Source of the DNA: Clostridia bacterium
GTDB lineage: Bacteria; Bacillota; Clostridia; Oscillospirales; CAG-272
Reading direction: 5' to 3'
Length of the DNA stretch: 64,000 nt
NCBI GenBank assembly: GCA_017556745.1
Contig: JAFYMF010000006.1
Span: 1 to 64,000 of the forward strand
The number at the start of each line of letters is the position of its first letter. The first letter of the stretch is position 1. The notes beneath the pieces are model-generated. The model did no database searches and was not told the origin of the DNA. It worked only from the letters and a program-made list of their open reading frames with translations. Both the position numbers and the translations under genes were made by a program. This document shows, piece after piece, positions 25,259 to 28,436 of the stretch.

Positions 25259-26203
25259 ATGGTTGAAAAGAACGGAATCATAATAAAGGGAGTGGGCGGT
25301 CTTTATACCGTCCTCATTCCCGATGAGGGAATATATATTCCCTCAAGAGCAAGAGGAATATTCAGACATAAGGATATTACCCCACAGGTAGGGGACCGAG
25401 TTGCTGTTGAATACGATGACAGTAAAGATGTTCCGTCTGACGGTGTAATAAACGATATACTTGACCGCAGAAATGTACTTATCCGTCCGCCGATAGCTAA
25501 TCTTGATACTCTTTTCGTAGTATTATCGGTTTCAAAACCGGTAACCATTACCGAGACAGCAGATAAGCTTATCGCTGCGGCCGAGCATTACAGTACAGAG
25601 CCGATAATCATTATAACCAAGAAGAATCTTGATCCCGATGAGGCATCACGTCTTGAAGGAATATACAAAAAAGCAGGTTTTACTGTTTTTCTTACCGACA
25701 GTCATGACGGAGAGGGAATAGACGAGGTTCGTGACTACATCATCGGTACTGCAGGTAACGGTATATCTGCCTTTGCCGGTGCGTCAGGAGCAGGAAAGAC
25801 CACTATCTTTAATACCCTTTTCCCGGGACTGACTCTGAAAACAGGAACAGTCAGTCACAAGACCGGACGCGGACGACATACCACCCGTGCGGTAGAGCTT
25901 TATCCGCTCAGGGAGCTTGGGTATCCCGATTCCCCGGGATTTCTTGCAGATACTCCGGGGTTCAGTGCTTTGGATTTCCTGCATTTTGACTTTTTTGAGC
26001 TTGACGAGCTCCCCCTTAATTTCAGGGAATTTAACCGTTATATAGGGGAATGTAAATATAAAAAATGTACCCATCTTTGTGAGGACGGGTGCAGTATAGT
26101 AAAGGCGGTAGAAAGCGGAGATATATCCCTTAGCCGCCATGACAGCTACAGAGCGATGTATGCGGAACTTAAACAGAGGAAGCCATGGGAGAGAAAAAAC
26201 TAA
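25259..26203 (+). CDS. rsgA: Ribosome small-subunit-dependent GTPase
   Basis: The 314-residue circularly permuted GTPase helps 30S maturation. An N-terminal OB-fold (to about 70) is followed by G4 (ITKKNLD), G1 (GASGAGKTTIFN), the G3 region DTPGFSALD, and a zinc-binding end CKYKKCTHLCEDGC. The order G4-G1-G3 is the permutation signature. It follows prkC by 19 bases and overlaps thiN by 19 bases; rpe, found between them in B. subtilis, is missing. Confidence 0.96.
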   Translation: MVEKNGIIIKGVGGLYTVLIPDEGIYIPSRARGIFRHKDITPQVGDRVAVEYDDSKDVPSDGVINDILDRRNVLIRPPIANLDTLFVVLSVSKPVTITETADKLIAAAEHYSTEPIIIITKKNLDPDEASRLEGIYKKAGFTVFLTDSHDGEGIDEVRDYIIGTAGNGISAFAGASGAGKTTIFNTLFPGLTLKTGTVSHKTGRGRHTTRAVELYPLRELGYPDSPGFLADTPGFSALDFLHFDFFELDELPLNFREFNRYIGECKYKKCTHLCEDGCSIVKAVESGDISLSRHDSYRAMYAELKQRKPWERKN

Positions 26204-26829
26204 AAAAAGCATATATATATACCGGTGGCGAAAGTTACGGTGCTCTGTTGCCAATTCCACCCTGTGATGCTTTAATCATTGCCGCTGACAGTGGCTACGA
26301 TCTTGCCGACGGTTGCGGTGTTATTCCAAGTCTGTTGGTCGGAGACATGGATTCCATTGAATCAAAGTATATCCCCGACACGGTAGAGATTATAAAGGTA
26401 AAGGCAGAGAAGGACGAGACCGATACTATGCTTGCCGTCGACCTGGCACTTTCTCGCGGTGCTGAGGAAATATATATTTTCGGCGGACTTGGCGGCAGAG
26501 TAGATCACGGACTGTCTAATATATATCTTCTTGAATATATCCATTCGAGAGGGGCTGTGGGATATATTTCTGACGGAAAAAACTGTGTCAGATATCTGCG
26601 TAACGGAAGTATGAAAATTCACTGTGACAGTTATAAATACTTTTCTCTCATAAGCCTTGATGCGGTATCTTACGGAGTTACCGTGGATGGCGGCAAGTAT
26701 CCTCTTTGTGGGGCAGAGCTCAGACGAGAGAGACAGTATGCTGTCAGTAACGAGTTTTTATCTGAGACAGATGATGTAACCGTTAATGTAGAAAACGGTA
26801 CGCTTCTTGTAATAACCCATCACTGCTGA
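26185..26829 (+). CDS. thiN: Thiamine pyrophosphokinase
   Basis: The 214-residue enzyme transfers pyrophosphate from ATP to thiamine to make the cofactor. Family features are IIAADSGYDLADGCGVIPSLLVGDMDS, KDETDTMLAVDLAL and FGGLGGRVDHGLSNIYLL. The C-terminal thiamine-binding part is present (SLDAVSYGVTVDGGKYPL). The ATG at 26185 overlaps rsgA. It is followed by spoVM as in Bacillus subtilis. Confidence 0.93.
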   Translation: MGEKKLKKAYIYTGGESYGALLPIPPCDALIIAADSGYDLADGCGVIPSLLVGDMDSIESKYIPDTVEIIKVKAEKDETDTMLAVDLALSRGAEEIYIFGGLGGRVDHGLSNIYLLEYIHSRGAVGYISDGKNCVRYLRNGSMKIHCDSYKYFSLISLDAVSYGVTVDGGKYPLCGAELRRERQYAVSNEFLSETDDVTVNVENGTLLVITHHC

Positions 26830-26897
26830 ACAAAAAAACAGAGATAGCATATACTTAAAACGAGAAACTATAAGCAAGGTAAGGAAGGGTATGTGCT

Positions 26898-26975
26898 ATG
26901 AAAATAGTTGTGGTAAAATCACCGAAGCTGCTGATTCCTTTTTTGAGGCGGCTCTTCGGAATTTCAAAAGGTTGA
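26898..26975 (+). CDS. spoVM: Stage V sporulation protein M (SpoVM)
   Basis: This 25-codon gene encodes MKIVVVKSPKLLIPFL followed by RRLFGISKG, an amphipathic helix like B. subtilis SpoVM, the peptide that recognises the convex forespore surface and anchors the coat ATPase SpoIVA. Pro9 and the basic C-terminal half are conserved in position; the usual glycine pair near 13-14 is replaced by Ile-Pro. AAGGAAGGG lies eight bases before the ATG. Its place directly after thiN, as in B. subtilis, makes the call much stronger than sequence alone. A strong terminator follows at once. It implies an endospore-forming lineage. Confidence 0.88.
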   Translation: MKIVVVKSPKLLIPFLRRLFGISKG

Positions 26976-27016
26976 AAAATCCGCCGTATCTTTTGCTTAA
27001 GATACGGCGGATTTTT
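26975..27016. terminator. Strong bidirectional terminator between spoVM and gatB
   Basis: Eighteen-base perfect arms (core ATCCGCCGTATCTT) enclose TTGCTT; the A-run before and T-run after make it work on both strands. It ends the housekeeping cluster (+) and the gatCAB operon (-). Confidence 0.93.
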
Positions 27017-27017
27017 A

Positions 27018-28436
27018 TTATAATATTTTTTCTGCTTCGTCGTTTAGAATTACCGGATCAGCTCGTCCCTTGGATATAGCCATTGCTCGTCCGATAATGC
27101 TCTTAATTGCGGCTTTTTTGCCATTTTTGTAGTCACTGACAGCTTTCGGCAACTCTTTTACTGCAGTGTCAAGCAGCTCCCTGATTTTTTCTTTGTCCCG
27201 AATCATACCGAGGTTATCGCGAGTGACAATTTCGGCAGGTGACATTCCATCCTCTGCGGTACAGCGGGAGATAAGTAACTTTGCGGTACCGTTGTTTATT
27301 TCCCCCGCACTTAAAAGGTCTGTTATCTCCGCAAGATGAGATGGAGAAACGATCGGTTCATTTTCACCTAACTTCGGAAGTATCTCACCGATAAACAGAT
27401 TTGTAAGTGTTTTTTTGTTTTGGGTAAGTGTTACAGCGGTATTATAATATTCGGATGCCGCAGGGGACTCGGCAATAAGCTCGGCATCGTCTTGTGACAG
27501 AGAATACTCGCTGCAGTATCTTGCAATTTTTGCATCCGGCAGTTCAGGAAGTGTGGCGGCGAGAGAACAAATAAGCTCGTCACTGACTGTCAGACGGGGA
27601 AGGTCGGGGTCAGCAAAGAAACGGTAATCTCTCTGCCCCTCTTTACTTCTCATAGAAAAGGTTTTTCCCGAATTTTCGTCGTATCGCCTGGTCTCGCGAA
27701 CTATCTCACCACCTGCGAGAATAGTGTCTACCTGTCGCTTGAATTCATATTCTACCGCACGTCCTGCATGATTTATGGAATTAAGGTTTTTTATCTCGGT
27801 TCGCGTGGTAAAGGAAGTATCCCCGACCTCTCTTACCGAAACATTTATATCTGCACGCATTGAACCTTCATTCATTTTGCAGTCGGATACCCCTGTTGAG
27901 ACTAATATGGTTCTCAGCTTTCTGAGATAGCTTTTTACTTCCTCAGCAGTATGCATACAGGGACGTGATACTATCTCGATAAGGGGTACTCCCGCGCGGT
28001 TAAAATCTATTAATGTTTCACCGTCGCGGTGTATCAGCTTGCCGGCATCCTCCTCTATGTGTATTCTTTCAATACCTATATTCAGAAGTTGTCCGTCTTC
28101 ATCTGTTATGTTAAGATGACCGTCGTAAAGAAGAGGAATATCATACTGAGATATTTGATACCCCTTAGGCAGGTCGGGATAGAAGTAATTCTTTCTGTCA
28201 TGTCCCGAGGATTTATTTACAGTACAGTTTAGGGCAAGACCTGCAGTTATAGCATATTCAACTACCTTTCGGTTTAATGTAGGCAGTGCGCCGGGCATAC
28301 CTGTACATACAGGACAGGTGTGACTGTTAGCTTCACCACCGTAGGCGGTAGAGCAGGAGCAGAATATCTTACTGGCAGTACTGAGCTCACAGTGAACTTC
28401 AAGCCCTATTACCGCCTCATATCCCTTATATATCAT
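27018..28436 (-). CDS. gatB: Asp-tRNA(Asn)/Glu-tRNA(Gln) amidotransferase subunit B
   Basis: The 472-residue subunit binds and phosphorylates the mischarged tRNA. The opening MIYKGYEAVIGLEVHCEL is the family start, followed by zinc cysteines in FCSCSTAYGG and HTCPVCTGMPG, and HDRKNYFYPDLPKGYQISQYD. The C-terminal YqeY-like tail domain is complete. ATG 28436 was chosen because AAAGGCGG precedes it, rather than the GTG at 28454. The start overlaps gatA by 11 bases. GatCAB implies that this organism makes Gln-tRNA and/or Asn-tRNA by transamidation. Confidence 0.96.
   Translation of the reverse strand: MIYKGYEAVIGLEVHCELSTASKIFCSCSTAYGGEANSHTCPVCTGMPGALPTLNRKVVEYAITAGLALNCTVNKSSGHDRKNYFYPDLPKGYQISQYDIPLLYDGHLNITDEDGQLLNIGIERIHIEEDAGKLIHRDGETLIDFNRAGVPLIEIVSRPCMHTAEEVKSYLRKLRTILVSTGVSDCKMNEGSMRADINVSVREVGDTSFTTRTEIKNLNSINHAGRAVEYEFKRQVDTILAGGEIVRETRRYDENSGKTFSMRSKEGQRDYRFFADPDLPRLTVSDELICSLAATLPELPDAKIARYCSEYSLSQDDAELIAESPAASEYYNTAVTLTQNKKTLTNLFIGEILPKLGENEPIVSPSHLAEITDLLSAGEINNGTAKLLISRCTAEDGMSPAEIVTRDNLGMIRDKEKIRELLDTAVKELPKAVSDYKNGKKAAIKSIIGRAMAISKGRADPVILNDEAEKIL

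Follow-up and report, generated by a model that had tools for sequence, protein, structure and literature searches.

SpoVM of Bacillus subtilis is a peptide of 26 amino acids in which Lys2, Ile6 and Ile15 are required residues. Pro9 is, according to the legend of Fig. 1 in PMC5607322, the sole fully conserved residue in the published SpoVM alignment, and the accessible part of a review (PMC12004969) states that this proline keeps the N-terminus flexible, the P9A substitution leading to a longer helix and to the loss of curvature sensing. The same part of the review describes prolines tested at positions 7-13 in the P9A background, a set that leaves position 14 outside. The gene is controlled by SigE in C. 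difficile (PMC5607322) and, as stated in the available text of PMC517825, in B. subtilis. Promoters of SigE and SigK share the -10 box and differ in the -35 element, which is ATA for SigE and AC for SigK, and in B. subtilis a Gln or an Arg at one position of the sigma factor chooses the -35 base; SigE can in addition recognise some of the SigK promoters (PMC517825). The motifs published for C. difficile contain the same ATA (SigE) and AC (SigK), and in this bacterium dpaA is controlled by SigK, and spoIIIAA and spoIVA by SigE, as far as the portion of PMC3789822 at hand reports. The spoVM gene of C. difficile is cotranscribed with an upstream gene, CD25622, which encodes 50 residues of unknown function and has been thought to be limited to Peptostreptococcaceae, according to the accessible part of PMC5607322, the only publication found in a literature search for CD25622 and the spoVM operon.

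The window analysed here, a stretch of 64,000 nucleotides from a Clostridia bacterium, holds a short gene at 26898-26975 whose translation on the forward strand is MKIVVVKSPKLLIPFLRRLFGISKG, followed by a stop codon. An earlier note on this DNA had named it spoVM, and on the evidence of its sequence it is a genuine spoVM, the call being borne out by the ribosome-binding site, a family match, peptide conservation, the hallmark residue Pro9 and the gene context. Like its C. difficile counterpart, the product is a small peptide with Pro9, and it shares with B. subtilis SpoVM the length (25 residues here), Lys2, the hydrophobic-basic pattern and the place after thiN. It differs in having Val6 and Phe15, hydrophobic substitutes that are frequent in the order, and Ile13-Pro14 where B. 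subtilis-type SpoVM has Gly13-Gly14.

Table 1. Features of the spoVM locus in the window
Feature	Coordinates	Strand	Remarks
rsgA, ribosome small subunit-dependent GTPase	25259..26203	+	TIGR00157 179.5 bits, cut-off 100
thiN, thiamine diphosphokinase	26185..26829	+	TIGR01378 143.1 bits, cut-off 76.4; upstream neighbour
Predicted SigK-type promoter, AC-N16-CATATACT	26830..26855	+	-35 AC directly after the thiN stop
Ribosome-binding site, AAGGAAGGG	26881..26889	+	8 nt before the spoVM ATG
spoVM	26898..26975	+	25 codons and stop; conserved Pro9, clade-typical Pro14
18-bp inverted repeat, 6-nt loop	26975..27016	+	right after the spoVM stop; read from sequence

The best match of the peptide is the NCBIfam model NF033436 (SpoVM_broad), which covers residues 1-24 with an E value of 2.5e-6 and 27.4 bits, under the curated cut-off of 31 bits; a Pfam search of the peptide returned no match. 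Across the class, 95 of 291 genomes match NF033436 and just nine of those 95 exceed the cut-off, and we treat the cut-off as a limit of this model and not as a trait that defines SpoVM. With a score under the cut-off, automatic annotation would likely miss the gene, in line with the remark of the earlier note that gene finders easily overlook it. A chance ORF was ruled out by the conservation of the peptide together with the codon differences from a genus mate, which in 25 codons comprise eight synonymous changes and two Arg-to-Lys replacements. An overlapping ORF of 62 amino acids (26891-27079) was rejected as the true gene, since it has no family match in NCBIfam or Pfam.

Of 245 genomes searched in the order, 165 gave a SpoVM peptide match (E<=1), and so did 150 of 196 genomes of the window's family (E<=10), one of the family matches fetched (L183) not being SpoVM. 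The peptides compared below derive from 146 loci of the 150 matching family genomes and from 89 loci fetched from the 149 matching genomes of other families of the order; these last are mostly the best-scoring matches, so that this set is biased toward the query. Fifteen records (L031 and L057-L070) were dropped before the peptides were counted, and seven of the 235 loci failed the peptide filter, six for extra N-terminal residues and one (L183) for not being SpoVM, leaving 228 peptides that, the window's included, share the basic-hydrophobic pattern. The six longer family peptides (L052, L077, L135, L141, L148 and L167) carry their additional residues before the conserved Lys-Ile/Val, one residue in five of them and at least three in L052.

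The gene order rsgA-thiN-spoVM, with 68 nt between the end of thiN (26829) and spoVM, agrees with the earlier observation that the gene lies after thiN as in B. subtilis. The genes rsgA and thiN are adjacent, with ends overlapping at 26185-26203; in contrast to B. subtilis, the locus has neither an rpe gene between the two nor an adjacent rpmB gene. The inverted repeat after spoVM would be a probable terminator shared with the convergent gatB, which lies downstream of the hairpin on the opposite strand and was named from its translation alone; a terminator scan listed none at the spoVM locus. Among the 228 loci, thiN is found upstream on the same strand in 57 (35 of 139 in the family and 22 of 89 elsewhere in the order) and rsgA without thiN in a further 54 (39 and 15, respectively); in the remaining half, spoVM is located elsewhere or its neighbours were not recognised. 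Of 19 genomes from other families that match SpoIVA, six (G199, G121, G145, G013, G070 and G054) have spoVM and spoIVA no more than about 2 kb apart; the window's genome has the two genes on different contigs.

The window's genome (95% complete) is that of an endospore former, as it carries Spo0A (270 bits), SpoIVA (669.3 bits, cut-off 459.9) and the sporulation sigma factors. SigG and SigE each exceed one of two NCBIfam cut-offs, SigK is full length with 250.1 bits against a cut-off of 252, and SigF is full length with 242.5 bits against 321. Matches to SpoIIIAA (188 bits) and DpaA (146 bits) are both below the curated cut-offs. SpoIVA is also present in 161 of the 196 family genomes. The endospore-forming ancestry proposed by the earlier note thus finds support in the very genes it had suggested searching for (spoIVA, spo0A and sigF, the last under its cut-off), and neither an absence of sporulation genes nor a poor conservation of the peptide in sister species was observed.

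One departure from the described systems concerns the promoter. Contrary to B. subtilis spoVM, under SigE, the window's gene is preceded by a sequence of SigK type, since at 26830-26855 it shows an AC -35 element and a CATANNNT -10 box at the expected distance of 16-17 nt. The genus mate (L032) has the same AC, spacing and -10 box as the window, and a different spacer sequence. A CATANNNT box appears within 130 nt before spoVM in 105 of the 139 family loci and in 120 of all 228 (23 expected), and in an alignment of 90 family sites on this box, 65 have AC at a distance of 16 or 17 nt before it. At this same place in the window, a sigma-70 scan calls TGAACA-N17-TATACT (9/12). Nevertheless, a sigma-A promoter was rejected as an improbable cause of the motif: TA is preceded by CA in 94 of 139 sites, although the search did not ask for CA, and the bases before AC are A or C in 92% of 91 K-type sites and TTG in only one of the 91. 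Ten of the 91 have at least five of the six letters of TTGACA, and 12 of the 139 family units contain a strong sigma-A-like site. The sigma factors of the genome show the expected residues at the position that chooses the -35 base, SigE reading GISQSY and SigK reading GISRSY.

Sites were counted within 300 nt upstream as K-type (AC-N16/17-CATANNNT) or E-type (ATA-N15-17-CATANNNT), the upstream regions of dpaA, spoIIIAA and spoIVA being taken from the start of the profile match and not from the start codon. In the window's family, K-type sites precede spoVM in 94 of 138 loci (2.9 expected) and dpaA in 18 of 29 (1.5 expected; one of 30 upstream regions was too short and was dropped), and are absent from the SigE controls spoIIIAA (0/30, 1.1 expected) and spoIVA (0/15, 0.8 expected), dpaA and spoIIIAA having been identified by matches below curated cut-offs. 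E-type sites show the opposite distribution, with 6/138 at spoVM (2.6 expected), 1/29 at dpaA, 7/30 at spoIIIAA and 7/15 at spoIVA. In the 15 family genomes from which both genes were fetched, a K-type site is present before spoVM in all 15 (within 90 nt in 12) and before spoIVA in none; with a looser E-type spacing, three of these 15 spoVM regions hold an E-type site too. The window's own genome has no recognisable site of either type before spoIVA (L031) or spoIIIAA (L441), so that the contrast between spoVM and the controls rests on its relatives. Elsewhere in the order, K-type sites precede spoVM in 30 of 89 loci (1.2 expected) and spoIVA in 2 of 15, the counts for E-type sites being 3 of 89 and 0 of 15, respectively. 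Outside the order, spoVM shows K-type sites in 7 of 20 loci of the class and 0 of 7 of another phylum (E-type, 1/20 and 0/7). Among best-scoring outgroup loci with Bacillus-type spoVM, K-type sites occur in 2 of 16 and E-type sites in 1 of 16, a rarity of the E-type pattern that stands although SigE control is known there. Together, these data suggest that spoVM in the window's family has a SigK-type promoter and would be switched on later than in textbook bacteria.

Where the K-type site is farther from spoVM, the space is often filled by a conserved ORF of about 50 codons (examples are L256:5905-6060, in a named relative, and L085, L103 and L023). In 99 of 228 loci, a profile of this small protein matches immediately before spoVM, with a median gap of 16 nt and a maximum of 253; these comprise 35 of the 139 family loci and 64 of the 89 from other families of the order. 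In the family, this gene never occurs together with a K-type site at 120 nt or less from spoVM: of the 139 loci, 69 have only the site, 35 only the small gene, 35 neither and none both. Outside the family, a site so close to spoVM is found in just 7 of 89 loci. The K-type site stands instead before the small gene in 50 of the 99 loci (1.3 expected), including 27 of 64 outside the family. We infer that a single promoter would serve the small gene-spoVM unit and that the small gene is absent from this unit in the window's lineage; the best profile match in the window has an E value of 0.52, which amounts to none.

The small protein has the core GxGIL..LP..G, and its sequence points to a membrane protein; an AlphaFold model (seven sequences, mean pLDDT 76, pTM 0.37) predicts two helices with a turn at a proline. 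In nine close pairs, synonymous changes exceed other codon changes, from 24 against 2 down to 2 against 1. Five members scanned against Pfam and NCBIfam gave no match better than E 0.03. In 58 loci of the class and phylum, a few of which belong to the same order, the profile yielded 23 hits with E<=0.05; in 109 loci surrounding other genes of sporulation it yielded none with E<=1e-3. In having a gene for about 50 residues before spoVM, many of these units resemble CD25622-spoVM of C. difficile, which is published as SigE-controlled and has the small upstream gene that the window lacks.

According to these data, the spoVM gene of this endospore-forming clostridium is most probably functional, and its product would arrive late, under a SigK-type promoter, and would secure a SpoIVA basement already in place. 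In the proposed mechanism, the peptide would be made in the mother cell and would lie in the outer membrane of the forespore, its flexible N-terminal part with Pro9 being followed by a short amphipathic helix that would begin near Pro14. It is predicted to contact SpoIVA and, arriving after engulfment, would secure the existing basement rather than nucleate it as in B. subtilis. The late arrival is favoured because the spoVM promoter is of SigK type and those of spoIVA in the family are of SigE type or unrecognisable.

It is also possible, if rather doubtful, that this is an ordinary SpoVM made early, by SigE or by read-through from thiN, which nucleates SpoIVA and in which Pro14 is a neutral mark of the lineage. 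SigE control is the rule reported for B. subtilis and C. difficile in the accessible parts of PMC517825 and PMC5607322, SigE can read some SigK promoters (PMC517825), and thiN ends close by. However, the E-type pattern is near background at spoVM of the family, and it is present at spoIVA and spoIIIAA, where SigE sites would be expected.

The distribution of Pro14 bears on whether it is such a neutral mark. The earlier note had described Ile-Pro in place of the usual glycines; Ile13-Pro14 is real, but only Gly14 is usual in the order, whose peptides vary at position 13 and, three families apart, mostly have Gly at position 14. Nor does Pro14 distinguish this peptide, being a family trait: it is found in 125 of 139 peptides of the window's family (f1), in 3 of 3 and 5 of 5 of two other families (f6 and f20), in 1 of 9 of another (f23), and in none of the remaining 72 of the order. 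When the six peptides with a longer N-terminus, all of which carry the equivalent proline, are counted, the figure for f1 is 131 of 145. Outside the order it occurs in 0 of 43 peptides, drawn from the best-scoring 30 loci of each search, 8 of 58 loci having yielded no peptide. The alignment of clostridial SpoVM peptides that had been proposed as a check therefore depicts a conserved peptide with a clade-typical Pro14.

In a tree of 50 SpoIVA proteins, a branch with support 89/76 separates f1 from the rest, the families with mostly Gly14 form one clade (100/99), and f6 and f20 lie in between; eight changes between Pro14 and other residues are needed. Since Pro14 was not seen outside the order, we infer that it arose mainly once, arose separately in f23, and was lost several times within f1. 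These repeated changes fit a weak constraint, as expected of a neutral residue, but its retention in so many f1 peptides argues against neutrality.

A query with an RsgA alignment retrieved 80 named loci, 33 of them with spoVM nearby and 27 of these with Pro14; a single-protein RsgA scan of the named genomes found nothing. The named relatives are mostly metagenome assemblies labelled "Clostridia bacterium", with some "Oscillospiraceae bacterium" and "Ruminococcus sp.", and many come from herbivore guts.

As for the action of Pro14, the earlier note proposed that it would bend the helix. A Pro14-bearing relative of 34 residues, modelled from its single sequence (mean pLDDT 75, pTM 0.36), is predicted to be helical over residues 13-33, which places Pro14 in the first helical turn, and proline is tolerated in the first turn of a helix. 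Pro14 thus probably marks the start of a shortened helix and not a bend in its middle. The hydrophobic moment of residues 11-22 of the window's peptide is unremarkable (0.52, reached by 8.5% of shuffles), and the means for 134 Pro14 peptides (0.574) and 76 Gly14 peptides (0.621) are not clearly separated. Building on the bend proposed in the earlier note, one might suppose that Pro14 puts a kink in the membrane-bound helix and alters curvature sensing, perhaps to suit a differently sized forespore, but this is unlikely. In its favour, the P9A data in the available part of PMC12004969 indicate that the position of a proline controls curvature sensing by SpoVM, and two species of genus g6 have Arg9 and retain Pro14 (L173 and L174). 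Against it stands the model, of moderate confidence, with Pro14 at the helix start. Moreover, Pro9 is missing from five of the 228 peptides and the other three, with Asn9 (L179), Ser9 (L229) and His9 (L250), lack Pro14, so that a Pro9/Pro14 swap is no rule. Ser9 also occurs in two more peptides of the order, from the outgroup set (L421 and L422).

That spoVM is decaying and disused is very improbable: its loss is mild and largely tolerated in C. difficile, according to the accessible part of PMC5607322, and 46 of 196 family genomes have no match, but 23 of these 46 are less than 90% complete or more than 5% contaminated, so that some misses may reflect incomplete genomes, and in the genus mate the promoter sequence is kept and the codon changes are synonymous or conservative.

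Returning to a late-arriving SpoVM, a more specific version for the family as a whole is quite possible and is offered tentatively: SpoVM of f1 may have moved from SigE to SigK control and, with or instead of the hairpin protein of about 50 residues, may fasten the finished basement, Pro14 shortening its helix.

SpoVM is a model for how a tiny protein finds a curved membrane, and is commonly presented as acting early in the assembly of the coat. A family whose SpoVM contains another helix-breaking residue and whose spoVM promoter looks late would provide natural variants for testing the requirements of curvature sensing, and would let one ask if coat assembly that starts with SpoVM is peculiar to Bacillus. 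What deserves the attention of specialists is the predicted late promoter together with the companion gene, and the putative upstream membrane protein family is a concrete candidate for an undescribed part of sporulation.
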